Shown here piece after piece: positions 3-7,606 of a stretch of DNA of 64,000 bases (positions are counted from its first letter, which is position 1; each line of letters opens with the position of its first letter). This DNA comes from Salinicola corii (lineage in GTDB: Bacteria; Pseudomonadota; Gammaproteobacteria; Pseudomonadales; Halomonadaceae). A program made the translations under genes and the position numbers. The notes beneath the pieces are model-generated. The model was not told the origin of the DNA. It worked only from the letters and a program-made list of their open reading frames with translations, and ran no database searches. Location of the stretch: assembly GCF_008298015.1 (NCBI RefSeq), contig NZ_VTPX01000004.1, positions 310,001-374,000 of the forward strand, given 5' to 3'.

Positions 3-314
3 CGCGACGAGGGGCGCAGTTTCGAGCATCTCTACTATCTGCTGGAAGCGGCGCTGGCGGGGCTGGGTGTCGCCATCGCGCCGCAGTTGTTGGTGGCGGG
101 CGAGCTACGCCAAGGGCGGCTGGTGGCACCGTGGCCCACGATCGAGACCGATGCGTCGCTGGGGCTGTGGCTGGCGCCCGGCGTCGATGCTCGGCGAGGC
201 GAGCGCCTCGCCGAGTGGTTGCGCCGCGAGCTGAGTCAAGGCGTCGGCGCAAGGGGAAAGCCACCGGAGGACGATCAGCGGTCGGAGCCGTCCCCGAGTG
301 ACTCGGCGCGCTGA
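3..314 (+). CDS. LysR-family transcriptional regulator, C-terminal fragment
   Basis: The window opens inside this gene. The frame beginning at base 3 reads [20 protein letters not shown], then [20 protein letters not shown], and runs to a stop at 312-314. This matches the end of the effector-binding domain of LysR regulators of the GcvA/AmpR type, where a loop of the form FEH-YY-L-AA--GLGVAI is followed by a strand ending in GRLVAP. The DNA-binding half lies upstream of the window, so target and ligand cannot be inferred. The last 40 bases overlap the end of the convergent GntR gene. The charged tail after about base 250 is not typical of the family. The family call is secure; the function is unknown. 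Confidence 0.8.
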
Positions 315-1012
315 CGATAGAGCTCGCTGGTTCGAGTGAGGTGGTCGCGCATCGCCTGCTCCGCGGCGTCGGGATCGTTGTCGGCCAGGCAGTCGACGAT
401 CTGATGGTGCTCGCGAAGGGAGACGTCTTCCGCCCCGCGGAAACTGACGATGCCGAGATGATAGTCCTTCAGCCAGTGGAGCATGGCGCGAGCCGTCGCC
501 GAGAAGATCGGGTTGCCGGTCATGTCGGCGATTGCGCTGTGAAACGCCATGTCGCACTCGATGAAGGCATCGCCGCGTTGGCTCCGCTGCATGTCGTCGA
601 TCAATCCGCGCAGTTTGTCGATATCGTCGGGCGTCGCCCGGGTCGCGGCCATCCGTACCATGCCGGCCTCGAAGAACAGTCGTGCCTGCTTGAGGTGGTC
701 GATGTTCTCGGCATCGTCGTCGAGCAGAAAGCGGGCAGTGGTGTCGAACTGGGAGATCATCGAGTGAACGGTGACTTCGCTGACCCGCGCTCGCTCGCCG
801 TGGTTGATGGTGATCCTGCCCATCGCGGCGAGTTGCTGCATGGCTTCGCGGATTGCCGGCCGGCCTACGCCGTAGAGCGCCATCAGTTCCCGTTCGGGCG
901 GCAGTTGATCGCCGGGTTGCAGCTTCTGTGCACGGATCAGCGCCAGCAAGCGTTCCAGCACTTCGTCCGATAGCTTGCGTCGGCGGATCGGACCTGCAGC
1001 GATGTCATTCAT
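275..1012 (-). CDS. GntR/FCD regulator, NanR-like; probable regulator of the apiose cluster
   Basis: 245 aa. An N-terminal winged helix (about residues 10-80, with [20 protein letters not shown]) is followed by an all-helical FCD ligand domain (about 95-235). The stretches [21 protein letters not shown] and LRLFFE-like [12 protein letters not shown] closely resemble E. coli NanR, the sialic acid regulator. No sialic acid genes lie nearby, so the ligand is more likely a product of the neighbouring apiose/apionate genes. The ATG is preceded by AGGAAG. The gene precedes, on the same strand, the downstream end of the Gfo/Idh gene at 1119-2183 with a 106-base gap. TGGTATGATGAC motifs in the two promoter regions of the cluster are candidate operators. 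The family is certain; the role is inferred from position. Confidence 0.85.
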
Positions 1013-1118: not shown

Positions 1119-2183
1119 CTAGCGGTTCCAGCGTTCGGGAATCACGCTCTGGTGCGTTGCCGCCGCCTCGTAGGCCGCTTCGACCAGCGCCAGGGTGTTG
1201 TAGTTGTCCTCGCCGCGGGTCTCGATCGGGCGGTTTTGCCGATACGCTTCGAGCCAGTCGGCCTGAAAGGCGAGCACGCTGGCCTGGATCGGTACCCATG
1301 GTGATTCACTCCAGGCAGGCGGCTCGGGCCGGACCGTCTGCACCACGCAGTGGCCCCCGGTATCGTGGATCTCGAGGACGAAATCCTGGCGCAGGCGCAG
1401 CGAGCCGTGGACGCCGTCGACCTCGATCAGACTCTGCGGGAACGGATCGTCGGCGAGCCGGGTGGCATAGCTGCAATCGACGACGGAGGTGATGCCGTCG
1501 TCGTGTTGCAACATCAGGGTGGCGACGTCTTCACCCGCGATCGCGGCGTTGATCCGCGTGGTCTCGCAACTCAACCGCGCCACCTCGCCGAACAGGGCGC
1601 GGGCGATATCCAGCACATGAATGCCCAGGTCCTCGAGGATGAAGCGTTCCGCCCGGGCCAGATAGGGCTGGGCCGCGTAGACATCGAAACCGCTGCGATA
1701 ACTGATGCGGCCAAAGAAGGGGCGGCCGATTCGCCCGCTGCGCAGCGTCTCGATCGTCTGGCGAACCGCATGTTGCCAGCGGAAGTTCTCGTGGATGCCG
1801 AGGCTCACCCTGCTCGCCGAGCACTGCGCGATCAATCGGCTGGCGTTCTCCAGCGAGCCGGCGAAGGGCTTCTGGCAGATGATATCGACGCCATGGCGGG
1901 CCGCCAGCGGGACCAGCGCCGCATGGGAGGGCGTGGTGGTGGCGATATCCACGAAGTCCAGCTCCCCGGCGAACGCGGCGAACAGGGTTTCCGCCTCGGT
2001 ATAGGCGGCTTCGACGCCGAATAGATCCCGAAAGTACGCCAGTCGTTGCGGATCGCGATCGCACAAGGCGACGATCTCGACGCCTTTTCCCATCTCATGG
2101 AGATCCCGCCACGCTCGCATCTGGTTTTCGGCGAAGAAACCGCAACCGATCAGCGCGCCCCGCACAGTTCGCTGTTGGGTCAT
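1119..2183 (-). CDS. apsD: Gfo/Idh/MocA-family dehydrogenase, probable D-apiose dehydrogenase (ApsD)
   Basis: 354 aa NAD(P)-dependent oxidoreductase. The Rossmann nucleotide-binding start is GALIGCGFFAENQMRAW (about residues 10-26). The family lysine lies in CQKPF (about residue 100), followed by the HENFRWQ segment and a C-terminal substrate domain. GCGFFA and HENFRxQ are what I recall from D-apiose dehydrogenase ApsD, which oxidises D-apiose to D-apionolactone; that is from memory, not a search. The ATG has a good GGGAGGG ribosome site eight bases upstream. It is divergent from the apionate lactonase genes, whose product would open the lactone made here, so the context supports the assignment. 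A different sugar substrate within this large family remains possible. Confidence 0.7.
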   Translation of the reverse strand: MTQQRTVRGALIGCGFFAENQMRAWRDLHEMGKGVEIVALCDRDPQRLAYFRDLFGVEAAYTEAETLFAAFAGELDFVDIATTTPSHAALVPLAARHGVDIICQKPFAGSLENASRLIAQCSASRVSLGIHENFRWQHAVRQTIETLRSGRIGRPFFGRISYRSGFDVYAAQPYLARAERFILEDLGIHVLDIARALFGEVARLSCETTRINAAIAGEDVATLMLQHDDGITSVVDCSYATRLADDPFPQSLIEVDGVHGSLRLRQDFVLEIHDTGGHCVVQTVRPEPPAWSESPWVPIQASVLAFQADWLEAYRQNRPIETRGEDNYNTLALVEAAYEAAATHQSVIPERWNR

Positions 2184-2295: not shown

Positions 2296-2416
2296 AAAGT
2301 CGAATGGCGCCCAGCGTCAGAACCGCCATCATCGGTTCGAGACCCGTGCCAGAAAGGGGTGTCCCGGGGGCGCTTCAGCGGACTTATTGACGGCATCGAC
2401 GAGAGAAGGAGAGCAC

Positions 2417-3157
2417 ATGGGGACGGACGGCCCGGGCTTGATTCGGCAATACGGCACGGCGACGCCGGAGCCGGCGCCGTGCCATATCCAGTTGGGAGCG
2501 TTGTCGTTCGCCTGGCAGTCGGGCGCCCTGCGTTGGCTCCGTATCGGCGATATCGAAATCGTGAGGGGGATCGCTGCGGTGCTGCGTGACCCGCAGTGGG
2601 GCACCCATACGCCGATCGTCGATGACAAGCGGATCGAAGTGGCGCATCGCCATGCCAGCCTGGCACAGGATTTTCATCTATCGACCGACGGTCCTGATGC
2701 TGGCGGTGAGTCGTTGCTGCGTGGACAGTTGCGGATCGAGGCGACCGAGCATCGGGTCACGGTGGACCTTGCCCTCGAAGTCCTCATCGATTTCACCACG
2801 GCGCGCAGCGGCGTGAGCATGCTGCTGCCGCTGGCGGGTGTCGTCGGCGGTGAAATTCAGGTGCTGCATACGGATGGCCAGCGGGAGACCACGCGGCTGC
2901 CCCACCTGATCAGCCCCTCGCAGCCGCTGTTCGATATTCGGCAACTACAGCTTTCACCAACGCTCGATGTCACGGTGAAGATCGATTTCGAGGGCGATGT
3001 GTTCGAAATGGAAGATCAGCGCAACTGGTCGGATGCCTCATTCAAGATCTACAACCGGCCGCTGGCCTGGCCGACGCCCTACGTGCTCGGGGCGGGGGAC
3101 CGGGTCGTGCAGCGGGTGGTCGTCTCTGTGGTCGACAGCGGGAGAACGCCCGGATGA
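2417..3157 (+). CDS. apnL: D-apionate lactonase, N-terminal domain as a separate gene
   Basis: 246 aa from the ATG at 2417, which has AGGAG five bases upstream; an open frame continues further upstream without a good ribosome site. The sequence resembles the beta-sandwich N-terminal part of D-apionate lactonase (ApnL), notably EIVRGIAAVLRDPQWGTHTP at about residues 48-67, and ends near the domain boundary. ApnL hydrolyses D-apionolactone to D-apionate. In the ApnL proteins I know, this part and the TIM-barrel part form one chain of roughly 600 residues. Here they are two genes overlapping by ATGA at 3154-3157. No catalytic residues can be assigned. The family likeness is recalled rather than searched. 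Confidence 0.65.
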   Translation: MGTDGPGLIRQYGTATPEPAPCHIQLGALSFAWQSGALRWLRIGDIEIVRGIAAVLRDPQWGTHTPIVDDKRIEVAHRHASLAQDFHLSTDGPDAGGESLLRGQLRIEATEHRVTVDLALEVLIDFTTARSGVSMLLPLAGVVGGEIQVLHTDGQRETTRLPHLISPSQPLFDIRQLQLSPTLDVTVKIDFEGDVFEMEDQRNWSDASFKIYNRPLAWPTPYVLGAGDRVVQRVVVSVVDSGRTPG

Positions 3158-4353
3158 GAACCGACGTCCACACGCTCCGGCTCGGCGGCCCGGCCTCGAC
3201 GCCACTGCCGTCCGTCGGCTGCGGTCTATGGTTGGATCGCATCAATGATCTCGGCCGGCTGGCACGGCAGCTCGATGCCGTCATGCCACGGCATCTGGAT
3301 GCGCTGCTCGATCTGCGCAGCTCCCGGGCGCTCGAGAATCTGCCCGGCTTGATGGTCAGCGCGGCCGAGCGCGACATCCCGGTATGGCTCTACGTGATCT
3401 GCGATGATCACGATCCGACGGGCTCGCTCTCGACGCTGGCACGGCGGCTGGAGGGGTTGCCTGGCCCCCCGGCCGGCATGCTGGTGACCCCGGCGGCGTA
3501 CCTCAAGAGCTACCAGCCGGATGGCGTCTGGCCTTCGGGCACATCGCCCGGTCAGGCACGGATGGCAGCGCGTGTACTGTGGCCGGAACTGGCGCTGGGC
3601 GGCGGCGTGCCGACCTACTTCACCGAGCTCAACCGCTGTCGCCCCGACCCTTCATCGATCGATTTCATCACCCATGCCGTCTCGCCCATCGTCCACGCCG
3701 CGGACGACCGCTCGGTGATGGAAACCCTGCAGAGCGTGCCGGATATCGTCGCTTCCTGCCGGGCCCTGGCGCCGACGACGCCTTACCGGATTACCACCAC
3801 CGCCATCGGTGCCTGGACCAATCCGTATGGCGAGTGTCTCACGCCCAACGATGGCAGCCAGCGCGTGACCCTGAGTGACGACGACCCGCGCCAGCGCGGG
3901 CTGTTCGCTGCGGCCTGGGGCGTCGGTTTCATGGCCCGCGTGGCCTATGCCGGGGTCAATGCCGCCACACTGTCGTCCCTCGGTCCGCCGTTCGATATCG
4001 GCGCTGATTCTCTCTATCCCGTGGGCCACGCGATCGCTGGCCTGTGCCGGGCAGCGGGGCAACCGCTGCGGCAACTGAAACTCGGCGGTGCCGAGCTGGC
4101 GGCGCTGGCCTGGCAGACCGAGCTCCTCGCCGTTATCGAGGTATGGATCGCCAACCTGAGCGCGGACGCCGTGCCGCTGTACATCGAGGACGTCGACCTT
4201 CTCGAACTGTCACGACTCACTGCGATGGGTGATGGATTTCAGCCGGCGCCGAGCATGGAGGCGCGTCTGCGCGCCGGTGAAACCGATCGGCTCGCGGGGT
4301 TCGAGATTCTCAGACTCCGCGTGCAGAACCTCGGGTCGGGTCCGGACTGCTAG
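3154..4353 (+). CDS. apnL: D-apionate lactonase, C-terminal TIM-barrel domain as a separate gene
   Basis: 399 aa. This corresponds to the C-terminal glycoside-hydrolase-like barrel of ApnL. Recognisable segments are GGGVPTYFTELNRCRPD (about residues 150-166), HAVSPIVHAADDRSVMET (about 175-192) and the following TTTAIGAWTNPYGE. The ATG overlaps the stop of the N-terminal gene (ATGA) and has its own CGGGAG ribosome site nine bases upstream, so the two halves are probably translated in step and assemble. Together they total 645 residues, close to an undivided lactonase. A one-base frameshift in an originally single gene could give the same picture. The extra start site and the position at the domain border favour a real split. 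Confidence 0.7.
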   Translation: MRTDVHTLRLGGPASTPLPSVGCGLWLDRINDLGRLARQLDAVMPRHLDALLDLRSSRALENLPGLMVSAAERDIPVWLYVICDDHDPTGSLSTLARRLEGLPGPPAGMLVTPAAYLKSYQPDGVWPSGTSPGQARMAARVLWPELALGGGVPTYFTELNRCRPDPSSIDFITHAVSPIVHAADDRSVMETLQSVPDIVASCRALAPTTPYRITTTAIGAWTNPYGECLTPNDGSQRVTLSDDDPRQRGLFAAAWGVGFMARVAYAGVNAATLSSLGPPFDIGADSLYPVGHAIAGLCRAAGQPLRQLKLGGAELAALAWQTELLAVIEVWIANLSADAVPLYIEDVDLLELSRLTAMGDGFQPAPSMEARLRAGETDRLAGFEILRLRVQNLGSGPDC

Positions 4354-4446: not shown

Positions 4447-4535
4447 TGATGATCGCACAACTTGCCACGATATGGCCGACATCGACGGGTCATGCCGTGG
4501 TCACTGACAACGCTTTTGCGGGAGTGGGAGCGATC

Positions 4536-5891
4536 ATGGAACACGCGGCAGCTTCATCGGTGGAAACGTCCGCCATTCGCAAGGTGGCATGGCGCTTGGT
4601 GCCCTTCGTGGCCCTGATGTTCTTCATCAACTATCTGGATCGGACGGCGATCTCCTTTGCCGCCCCCAACGGCATGAACGCCGATCTGGCCCTGAGTGCC
4701 GCGCAGTTCGGTTTTGCCTCGGGCATCTTTTTCGTCGGCTACATCCTGCTGGAGGTACCCAGCAACCTGGCCCTGCATCGCTTCGGCGCGCGCAAGTGGC
4801 TGGCCCGGATCATGGTCAGTTGGGGCGTCGTGGCGCTGCTGTTCACCTGGGTGGACAGCGCCGGCGGGCTCTACTTCCTGCGCTTCCTGCTGGGCGTGGC
4901 CGAGGCCGGCTTCTTCCCCGGCGCGATCCTGTTCCTGAGCCTGTGGGTGCCGGCGCGCTATCGCAGCCGGATCCTGGCGCTGTTCTATCTGGCGCAGCCG
5001 TTGACCACGGTAATCGGCGCACCGTTGGCGGCGGCGTTGATCCAGCACGACGGCGCGTTCTTCGGGCTGGCGGGGTGGCGCTTCATGTTCTTCGGCGTGG
5101 CGATACCGGCGATCGTGCTGGGCATCGTCGCCTGGTTCTATCTGGTCGATCGCCCGGCCGATGCGCGCTGGCTGACGGCCGAGGAGAAGGCGTGGTTGAC
5201 CACCGAGCTCGAGCGGGAGTCCCGTCAGAAGCTTGGTGCCACTCAAGAGAAGAAAGGGCTCAAGCAGGCGTTCTCCAGCGGCCGGGTATGGGCGCTCTGC
5301 GGGATCTACTTCGGTTTCATCTACGGTCTTTATGCGCTTGCCTTCTTCCTGCCGACGATCATCGGCGGTTTCGAGGCGCAGTTCGGGACCCATTTCGGCC
5401 TGATGCAGAAAGGCCTGATTACAGCCGTACCCTATCTGCCGGCCGCGATCGTGCTCTATTTCTGGTCTCGCGACGCCACGCGGCGCGGAGTGCGCAGCTG
5501 GCATATCGCCGTGCCTGCTTTCACCGGCGCCGTCAGCGTTCCGCTGGCGCTGTTCATGGATTCGCCCGCCGCCACGGTAGCCATGATCACCATCACGGCG
5601 TGCTCGATCTTCGCCGCGCTGCCCAATTTCTGGACGTTGCCGACTCGCTTTCTCGATGGCGCCGCGGCCGCGGCGGGTGTGGCGCTGATCAACACCATTG
5701 GCAATATCGCCGGATTCTCGTCGGGGTATCTGACCGGCGCGCTGCATGATCTGAGCGGTGGTTATACCGTGCCGATGTTCGTGGTCGGCGGGTTCATGGC
5801 AATGGCTGGGGTGATGATGCTGATCATCAGCCGTGAGCCCGCCACGCCCAGCCGTCGCGCGACCCCCCACAACGCCACCGCCGGACACTGA
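4536..5891 (+). CDS. MFS transporter of the anion:cation symporter family, probable apiose/apionate uptake
   Basis: 451 aa from the ATG at 4536, preceded by GGGAG; the frame stays open to 4449 but those extra residues are not hydrophobic or family-like. About twelve membrane segments are visible. The start (AWRLVPFVALMFFINYLDRT) is the signature opening of the ACS family, which contains the glucarate, galactonate and 4-hydroxyphenylacetate carriers and brings in organic anions with protons. It lies between the lactonase and the downstream catabolic genes on the same strand, so its cargo is probably apionate, apionolactone or apiose. Exact specificity cannot be read from sequence. The family call is firm; the substrate is inferred. 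Confidence 0.85.
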   Translation: MEHAAASSVETSAIRKVAWRLVPFVALMFFINYLDRTAISFAAPNGMNADLALSAAQFGFASGIFFVGYILLEVPSNLALHRFGARKWLARIMVSWGVVALLFTWVDSAGGLYFLRFLLGVAEAGFFPGAILFLSLWVPARYRSRILALFYLAQPLTTVIGAPLAAALIQHDGAFFGLAGWRFMFFGVAIPAIVLGIVAWFYLVDRPADARWLTAEEKAWLTTELERESRQKLGATQEKKGLKQAFSSGRVWALCGIYFGFIYGLYALAFFLPTIIGGFEAQFGTHFGLMQKGLITAVPYLPAAIVLYFWSRDATRRGVRSWHIAVPAFTGAVSVPLALFMDSPAATVAMITITACSIFAALPNFWTLPTRFLDGAAAAAGVALINTIGNIAGFSSGYLTGALHDLSGGYTVPMFVVGGFMAMAGVMMLIISREPATPSRRATPHNATAGH

Positions 5892-5924: not shown

Positions 5925-6725
5925 ATGCGGATTGGACTGAGTACCTACGCCTTTTTCTGGCGCGGATCGGACCGGGTCGAGGAACCGATGTCGCTGGAAG
6001 CGATGCTCGAGGAGACGGTGGCGCTCGGCGGCGATGTCTTCCAGATCTGCGACTATCCGGTGATCGAGGCTTTCGGCACGGCACGACTGAATCAACTGCG
6101 CGCGCAGGCGGAGCGTCTCGGCATCCGGCTGGAACTCGGCACCAAGGGCGTGGCGCCCGACCATCTCGGTCGCTATCTGGATATCGCCGAGCGGCTGGGC
6201 GTATCGCTACTGCGCAGCATGTTGTATCGCGACGAGGATCGGCCCACCACCGAAGTCGCGATTCAGCGACTGGAGGCGATCCTGCCGCGATTGCGACGAC
6301 AGAACGTCACCCTGGCACTGGAAACCTACGAGCAGGTTGCCATCGATGACTTGATGGCGGTCATCGAGCATCTCGACGATCCGCATATCGGCATCTGTCT
6401 CGACCCGGCCAACTGCGTCGCCGCGCTGGAAATGCCGCTGACGGTCGTCGAACGCACCGCCCCGCGGGTCGTCAACCTGCACGTCAAGGATTTCCATTTC
6501 ACTCGCGCTCCCGGTTGGGTTGGGTTCCAGCTTACCGGCTGTCCGCTGGGAGAGGGGCAATTGCCGTTCGACGCCATGATGCGGCACGTCGATCCGGCAT
6601 CACGCGGTATTTCCCAGGTCATCGAGCACTGGCTGCCCTGGCAGTCGGATGCGACGACGACCTGCCGCCTGGAGTCCGAGTGGACCCGGCGCAACCTGGA
6701 CTTTCTAAGGAGCTATACACCATGA
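5925..6725 (+). CDS. Xylose-isomerase-like TIM-barrel protein, candidate 3-oxo-isoapionate decarboxylase (OiaC-like)
   Basis: 266 aa sugar epimerase/isomerase-fold protein. The usual four metal ligands can be placed: E133 (LALETYE), D160 (CLDPANC), H186 (NLHVKDF) and E234 (VIEHWLPW), so a divalent-metal enzyme is expected. The gene ends in an ATGA overlap with apnO, indicating tight coupling. In the oxidative apiose pathway, ApnO makes 3-oxo-isoapionate, which OiaC decarboxylates to L-erythrulose. No other gene of the cluster could perform this step, and no kinase or RuBisCO-like protein of the alternative branches is present. The decarboxylase role is therefore context-based; an isomerase acting on a related sugar acid is the alternative. 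Confidence 0.6.
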   Translation: MRIGLSTYAFFWRGSDRVEEPMSLEAMLEETVALGGDVFQICDYPVIEAFGTARLNQLRAQAERLGIRLELGTKGVAPDHLGRYLDIAERLGVSLLRSMLYRDEDRPTTEVAIQRLEAILPRLRRQNVTLALETYEQVAIDDLMAVIEHLDDPHIGICLDPANCVAALEMPLTVVERTAPRVVNLHVKDFHFTRAPGWVGFQLTGCPLGEGQLPFDAMMRHVDPASRGISQVIEHWLPWQSDATTTCRLESEWTRRNLDFLRSYTP

Positions 6726-7606
6726 CACAGACAGTTAGATCGATCGCGCTGGTCGGGGCCGGCGGCAAGATGGGCATGCGCATCTCGGCCAACCTGGCGC
6801 GCAGCGACTTCCATGTTCACTACTGCGAAAACGCCACCGAGGGCCAGCAGCGCGTCCGCGACGCGGGGAGAACCGTGTCGGGCATCGATGACGTCATCGC
6901 CGATTGCGATCTGCTGATTCTGGCGGTGCCGGACATCGTGCTTGGCAAGGTTTCCGAGGCGCTGGTACCACAGATGAAGGCTGACGCGACACTGCTGATG
7001 CTGGATCCGGCCGCGGCCTACGCCAACCTGCTGTTCCAGCGTGAAGATATCCACTACGCCGTGGCGCATCCCTGCCATCCGTCGGTTTTCCTCGAACGCT
7101 ACACCCGGGAGGAGCACGCCGATGCGTTCGGCGGCGTGGCGGCCACGCAGTCCGTCGCGGCGGCGTTCGAGAGCGGTAGCGACGCCGAAAGGGCGGCGCT
7201 GGAGGCGGTGATTCGCGTAATGTATGCCCCGGTCGATGATGTCCACTGGATTACCGTCACCCAACTAGCCTATCTCGAGCCGACGCTGGTGGAGACCGTC
7301 ACCTGCATGCTCGGCACCTTCATGCAGGAGGCGCTGGACGAGACCGTCGCGCGCACCGGCGTACCGCAGAAGGCTGCAGAGGCAATGCTCTACGGCCATA
7401 TCCAGATCGCGCTGGCGGTGGCGTTTCGCAGCACCAATCCGTTCTCGGACGCCTGCATGATCGCGATCGACTACGGTCGCGAGAATATCCTGCGCGACGA
7501 CTGGAAGAAGATTTTCGAGCAGTCGGAGCTCGATAAAGTCATCGCGCGGATGCTGAAGATCGACCGCGTCCGTCGCGACGAGTCGGCACCGCCGGCCAGC
7601 GCATGA
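6722..7606 (+). CDS. apnO: D-apionate oxidoisomerase (ApnO)
   Basis: 294 aa from the ATG at 6722, which overlaps the preceding stop (ATGA); AAGGAG lies upstream. An N-terminal NAD-binding fold (ALVGAGGKMGMRI, about residues 9-21) is followed by a helical domain of the phosphogluconate-dehydrogenase-like C-terminal type, with VAHPCHPSVF near residue 117 and QIALAVAFRSTNPFSDACM near 225. I recognise this as the family of D-apionate oxidoisomerase, which uses NAD to convert D-apionate to 3-oxo-isoapionate. Neighbouring lactonase-like genes support this strongly. It is the last gene of the plus-strand unit; a convergent gene ends ten bases later. Confidence 0.75.
   Translation: MTQTVRSIALVGAGGKMGMRISANLARSDFHVHYCENATEGQQRVRDAGRTVSGIDDVIADCDLLILAVPDIVLGKVSEALVPQMKADATLLMLDPAAAYANLLFQREDIHYAVAHPCHPSVFLERYTREEHADAFGGVAATQSVAAAFESGSDAERAALEAVIRVMYAPVDDVHWITVTQLAYLEPTLVETVTCMLGTFMQEALDETVARTGVPQKAAEAMLYGHIQIALAVAFRSTNPFSDACMIAIDYGRENILRDDWKKIFEQSELDKVIARMLKIDRVRRDESAPPASA

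Follow-up and report, generated by a model that had tools for sequence, protein, structure and literature searches.

In the 64,000-nt stretch of the Salinicola corii genome that was analysed (hereafter the window), an ApnL-like lactonase is encoded by two overlapping genes. This arrangement very probably represents a stable two-gene form of the enzyme, which arose by an ancient fission at the inter-domain linker and yields a heterodimer through coupled translation. A translationally coupled heterodimeric lactonase is the most likely product of the pair; we infer the complex, its activity, its substrate and the coupling in vivo. The two genes and the signals at their starts and junction are as follows.

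2406..2411, + strand: AAGGAG, ribosome site of ORF1, 5 nt upstream of ATG 2417 (read from the sequence)
2417..3157, + strand: ORF1, small-subunit gene (246 aa; ATG 2417 to TGA 3155-3157), galactose-mutarotase-like beta-sandwich half of the ApnL-like lactonase (NF049900, AF2 model, fold match)
3140..3144, + strand: GGGAG, SD-like site of ORF2, 9 nt upstream of ATG 3154 (read from the sequence)
3154..3157, + strand: ATGA stop/start overlap of ORF1 and ORF2, in the inter-domain linker (read from the sequence)
3154..4353, + strand: ORF2, large-subunit gene (399 aa; ATG 3154 to TAG 4351-4353), barrel and C-terminal beta-domain half with a clan-A glycosidase-like fold (NF049900, fold match of the fused model)

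The two ORFs lie in different reading frames. The earlier note had described two frames joined by an ATGA overlap, the second with a ribosome site of its own, and both elements were found, the overlap at 3154-3157 and GGGAG 9 nt 5' of the second ATG. In the window's own genome, searches with each half returned a single match per half.

Taken together, ORF1 and ORF2 cover nearly end to end, and in the same order, the NCBIfam model NF049900 (D-apionate lactonase), an equivalog of 595 positions with a curated cut-off of 750 bits. ORF1 matches model positions 3-232 (202 bits, E 1.3e-59), and ORF2 matches positions 255-589 (190 bits, E 7.6e-56). The summed score of the two halves (~392 bits) is about half of the cut-off, and the naturally fused protein of S. 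rhizosphaerae also falls below it (395.1 bits), whereas the fused ApnL of Rhizobium johnstonii (RL_RS34855, WP_011649155.1; 620 aa) obtains 1060.9 bits. The initial assignment of the pair as a D-apionate lactonase is thus borne out as homology over both parts of the model, but not by an equivalog score, and for this reason we use the name ApnL-like rather than ApnL, pending an assay. No Pfam-A family was matched by either ORF at E 0.001, and sequence searches of the PDB with either half gave no matches at E 0.1; the folds are therefore known from predicted models only. A profile search of the PDB gave one weak match, to an inorganic pyrophosphatase (E 0.84), which was taken as chance.

In these models, the break falls in a low-confidence linker between a mutarotase-like sandwich and a glycosidase-like barrel, in agreement with its original placement at a domain border. 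The AF2 model of the natural fusion from S. rhizosphaerae (pLDDT 86.7, pTM 0.90) drops below pLDDT 50 at residues 253-263, which correspond to the junction and form the sole internal stretch of this kind, and at the last three residues. Its barrel part, which begins near residue 263, resembles glycosidases, with Z 18.5-20.2 in the best 50 rows; we take the fold to be that of clan A. The best listed match is human proheparanase (5la4_A; Z 20.2, rmsd 3.6 over 363 residues), and GH39 and GH51 entries and a bacterial beta-glucuronidase lie within 1 Z of it. The small half of the window, modelled alone (pLDDT 85.9, pTM 0.85), best matches aldose 1-epimerase 3nre_A (VIA Z 15.5, rmsd 3.9 over 207 residues), and also a LacZ region (9hpl_A, chain residues 743-1024; Z 15.4). 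A shared fold by itself shows no function. The first 14 residues of the lone small half have pLDDT below 50, and residues 3-12 form a helix in the fused S. rhizosphaerae model; this comparison of two species gives a hint that the N-terminal end of the small half may pack on the barrel.

The distribution of the family was assessed in several genome samples, each genome count including the window's own (or centre) genome. The lactonase family is present in 6 of 18 Salinicola genomes, and second-half matches were obtained in 13 of the 275 genomes of the bacterial family (Halomonadaceae scope). More distant samples gave matches in 3/298 genomes of Pseudomonas, 2/85 of the Salinisphaera order (both already in the contig scan), 2/369 of the class sample and 14/398 of the phylum sample. 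The contig scan with the second half yielded 17 loci, and 236 plasmid records had matches; the four that were examined are all fused. The comparison set was composed of 39 loci chosen for holding both halves. The counts exclude L034, regarded as the other contig end of the S. socius gene L041; L059, regarded as identical with L042 because ORF match coordinates and identity are equal; L057, which has the small half only; and loci from the genome searches regarded as belonging to the same genomes as named loci.

The gene is split in 18 of these 39 loci and occupies a single frame in the remaining 21. The split set consists of the window, four more loci from Salinicola, five from Kushneria, two each from Halotalea and Salinisphaera, and four from Pseudomonas, some of them assigned by group code or search scope; the fused set consists of S. 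rhizosphaerae, Arhodomonas aquaeolei, two alphaproteobacterial metagenome-assembled genomes, the four plasmid records and 13 others. Outside the split clade, all 20 rows with both halves are single-frame. The comparison with close relatives that had been proposed as a check thus recovered the same split at 17 more loci, representing five genera in all. Several irregular loci were also encountered. In an uncultured Kushneria (L040), the second half contains a further frame break (about 6476-6784, stop at 6784), reflecting either an error or decay. The S. socius gene is broken by a contig end, the end of L041 and the start of L034 sharing the same second-half stretch. Two fused copies from genome G394 (L050 and L058; 934.9 and 628.6 bits) fall in different parts of the tree, and the family therefore has paralogues.

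The junctions of the 18 split loci share their organization and differ in its details. The second ATG overlaps the first stop in every case, by 4 nt (ATGA) at 12 loci, 14 nt at three, 11 nt at two and 8 nt at one, and the second frame is shifted relative to the first by -1 in 12 loci and by +1 in six. The inter-domain linker keeps a similar length, spanning 28-37 residues where the gene is split and 30-44 where it is fused. An SD-like match of at least 4 nt was found at all 18 junction ATGs versus 46 of the 143 control ATGs, which are those inside the upstream (first) ORFs; at a threshold of at least 5 nt, the corresponding numbers are 7/18 and 17/143. Since about one-third of the controls also have one, the 4-nt SD-like match of the window is unremarkable when taken alone, and it is the junction set, with an overlap and an SD-like site at every locus, that exceeds chance.

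These junctions bear directly on the possibility that a one-gene lactonase has been broken by an error of sequencing or assembly, or by a recent frameshift, an explanation that would fit the single-frame state of the other 21 rows and the joint coverage of a single-chain model by the two ORFs. We consider it virtually ruled out because nearly half of the comparison set, in five genera, is split, and each split locus has an overlapping stop and start. Four overlap lengths in two relative frames, an SD-like site at every junction and purifying selection on both halves (see below) stand against it as well. A search of the last 60 nt for long homopolymers gave none for the window and a single one (AAAAAA, in L029) for the 18 loci. 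The earlier note had favored gene fission over a sequencing slip, and the junctions, which differ in sequence, overlap length and frame, uphold that choice.

Programmed ribosomal frameshifting, by which a fused protein would be produced from the two frames, is likewise highly improbable. It would suit adjacent, overlapping frames and the existence of a naturally fused form in S. rhizosphaerae. Nevertheless, the variation in overlap (4 versus 8-14 nt) makes the relative frame differ between loci, which argues against such a mechanism, for which a single direction would be expected. At each locus, the second ORF starts at an ATG of its own with an SD-like site, and a scan of the last 60 nt for XXXYYYZ heptamers and long homopolymers revealed no in-frame heptamer at any of the 18 split loci.

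Under the preferred explanation, coupled translation of two cistrons, the ribosome would end the small subunit at TGA 3155 and re-initiate at the overlapping ATG 3154, aided by GGGAG. Both chains would be made from one mRNA in a coupled manner, and would assemble into a heterodimer mimicking the one-chain enzyme. Judged by the gene neighborhood, the heterodimer would act in a catabolic cluster of the D-apiose type and there open D-apionolactone or a closely related lactone. Two published reports describe overlapping gene pairs as widespread and enriched for subunits of complexes (PMC6728339, PMC10666635). In E. coli, pairs spaced at -8 to +10 nt code for subunits of a complex 4.5-fold more often than distant pairs do, and in H. 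volcanii the factor is 8.1 (PMC10666635); of 14 overlapping pairs tested, 13 showed strictly coupled translation (PMC6728339).

The history of the pair was reconstructed from a maximum likelihood tree of both joined halves for the 39 loci, in which L040 (for the tree and for dN/dS) is represented by the second-half part before its extra frame break and L041 likewise by part of the second half. Two split/fused changes are needed on this tree, both forced by well-supported branches. The split rows group with S. rhizosphaerae (100/99), and the sister of this clade is the fused Arhodomonas, the remaining outgroups also being fused. S. rhizosphaerae lies within the Salinicola group (100/100), its exact position there being without support. 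A grouping of the 18 split rows to the exclusion of S. rhizosphaerae, fixed from the reading frames before the tree was built, was rejected (p-AU 6e-25). Quick searches for single-half trees gave the same two changes for each half, with an SH-aLRT of only 90 for the split clade in the first-half tree. In S. rhizosphaerae, manual alignment places GCG where the second half would have its ATG, and no break in frame interrupts the linker; its neighbor genes are of the same kinds as in split Salinicola.

With an outgroup or midpoint root, the pair thus appears to have originated by one fission on the stem of the gammaproteobacterial clade, followed by one later re-fusion in S. rhizosphaerae, the latter represented by one assembly. 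Were the root placed within the split clade, the unrooted tree would again give two changes, but with the history reversed: the split would be ancestral, and the one-chain form would result from two fusions. We regard this as improbable: when the tree is rooted by distant rows or at the midpoint, fused forms lie on both sides of the root, which favors an ancestral fused state.

Conservation is distributed over both halves. In the 39 rows, 62 columns are at least 97% conserved, including 36 in the small half and 26 in the large half, and at each of them the window, whose sequence is among the 39, has the consensus residue. The densest near-invariant run, FEMEDQRNWxDASxKxY, belongs to the small half. 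The main motifs are as follows.

3002..3052, + strand: FEMEDQRNWSDASFKIY motif, small-half residues 196-212; 14 of 17 positions identical in 38 or 39 of 39 rows
3619..3636, + strand: FTELNR motif, barrel-half residues 156-161; F156, T157, E158, N160 and R161 identical in 39/39 rows
3820..3831, + strand: NPYG motif, barrel-half residues 223-226; identical in 38/38 rows with a letter there

Both halves are under purifying selection. The dN/dS ratio is 0.26-0.35 in seven of eight pairs for the small half and 0.19-0.32 in all eight for the large half; one pair involves the fused S. rhizosphaerae, and two involve partial second halves. For the closest pair (window versus EAC73), the small half gives 1.57, on only 11 nucleotide differences. 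Both halves presumably contribute to one active site. A more detailed proposal is made tentatively, as its chances fall somewhat short of even: an obligate heterodimer would have a composite active site built from a mutarotase-like subunit, with a probably catalytic EMEDQRNWxDASxK, and a repurposed clan-A glycosidase barrel with TELNR and NPYG, and the enzyme would have changed from a one-chain to a two-chain form, with a return to the former in a single species and with its cistron coupling kept through changes of frame and overlap length.

Separate functions for the two proteins, the mutarotase-like one acting alone (perhaps in epimerization or binding) and the barrel being the sole lactonase, would agree with the predicted ability of the small half to fold alone and with its resemblance to aldose 1-epimerases. 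The genome G467 would also fit, as it has a lone small-half-like ORF (L057, G467:C71:19588-20253; 117.9 bits) and no second-half match at E 0.001; in the manual alignment, however, this ORF is changed at several near-invariant motif positions, and it is possibly an orphan paralogue. We consider separate functions unlikely, given that the halves stand side by side in the 18 split loci (selected for both), follow the same two changes in single-half trees, retain when split the near-invariant columns of the fused enzymes, and are one chain again in S. rhizosphaerae.

The following genes surround the pair. Relatives were sought in flanks of at most 6 kb at 13 split loci (12 besides the window, L034 being assigned to S. 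socius), and the absence of a neighbor is therefore weak evidence.

275..1012, - strand: GntR/FCD regulator (PF00392, PF07729); relative in 12/13 split loci and near the fused Arhodomonas gene
1119..2183, - strand: Gfo/Idh/MocA dehydrogenase (PF01408, PF22725); relative in 13/13 split loci
4449..5891, + strand: MFS transporter (PF07690), start at 4449 or a later ATG, e.g., 4539; relative in 7/13 split loci, in Salinicola and Kushneria only
5925..6725, + strand: xylose-isomerase-like TIM barrel (PF01261); relative in 10/13 split loci
6722..7606, + strand: PGDH_C dehydrogenase (PF16896), start at 6722; relative in 10/13 split loci

We take the Gfo/Idh protein to be a candidate D-apiose dehydrogenase, the TIM barrel a candidate OiaC-type decarboxylase, and the PGDH_C protein a candidate ApnO-type D-apionate oxidoisomerase; none of the neighbor enzymes of the window cluster matched an equivalog above its cut-off. 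An ATGA overlap at 6722-6725, with AAGGAG upstream, also joins the TIM-barrel gene, which stops at TGA 6723-6725, to the PGDH_C gene, which starts at ATG 6722. On plasmid pRL12 of R. johnstonii, the fused gene is located near genes for a PGDH_C protein, a ribose-type ABC transporter, a Gfo/Idh protein and DhaK/DhaL. The window Gfo/Idh protein is 51% identical to its counterpart beside this fused ApnL, and the window PGDH_C protein is 41% identical to that of the R. johnstonii cluster over 199 aa of partial sequence. A relative of the Rhizobium-like ABC transporter was found in 4 of the 13 split loci (L035, L036, L038 and L039), and DhaK/DhaL relatives were found in none of the 13 flanks. A published D-apiose cluster is described as combining D-apionolactonase, D-apiose dehydrogenase and D-apionate oxidoisomerase (PMC11747546).

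The same two-subunit enzyme may act on a lactone other than D-apionolactone, a minor but appreciable possibility suggested by scores far under the equivalog cut-off for both the split and the fused proteins. The candidate ApnO of the window shows only the above-mentioned 41% identity to the Rhizobium protein versus 71% for that near the fused Arhodomonas gene, and relatives of this protein and of the TIM barrel are missing from the flanks of Halotalea L036 and Pseudomonas L038 and L039. On the other hand, the Gfo/Idh gene at all 13 split loci, the PGDH_C and TIM-barrel genes at 10 and the ABC transporter at four recall the R. johnstonii ApnL cluster. The value for the Arhodomonas PGDH_C protein (L042, 10909-11748) differs from the 40-42% seen throughout the split clade, and the cluster may thus be of mixed origin.

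Split copies score far below the family cut-off and are therefore likely to be missed by annotation pipelines, which would then also overlook the D-apiose capacity that Salinicola, Kushneria, Halotalea, Salinisphaera and some Pseudomonas may have. The family also offers a natural experiment on protein splitting, with apparently one fission, overlapping cistrons kept in diverged species and junctions in two frames, while the re-fusion in the same gene neighborhood makes the interchangeability of chain number, coupling and enzyme activity testable.

The ApnL of R. johnstonii pRL12 resembles the window pair in homology over both halves, domain order, common near-invariant residues and partly similar gene neighbors, but it is a single chain of far higher score. 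The closest precedent for the split itself is the heterodimeric LacL/LacM beta-galactosidase of lactobacilli, a single sugar-processing enzyme whose large and small subunits come from overlapping genes (PMC4358714, PMC3155831). The window pair is likewise a set of two overlapping, co-directed genes that together equal a single gene of relatives. LacM is the counterpart of the mutarotase-like domain at the end of LacZ, the LacZ region that the small half of the window matches. The domain order is the reverse of that in the window pair, and the reaction is different. The window halves also differ in having no match to a Pfam glycosidase family (GH2) at E 0.001. Gene pairs coupled by termination-reinitiation, as described by Huber et al. 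(2019, 2023), share with the window pair the ATGA overlap and SD-like site; the window pair differs in its apparent descent from one gene and in having a relative that is single-frame again. No report of a split ApnL was found in the open-access literature that was searched. Subunit pairs encoded by overlapping genes are already known, and what is new is an ApnL-like enzyme in two coupled chains.
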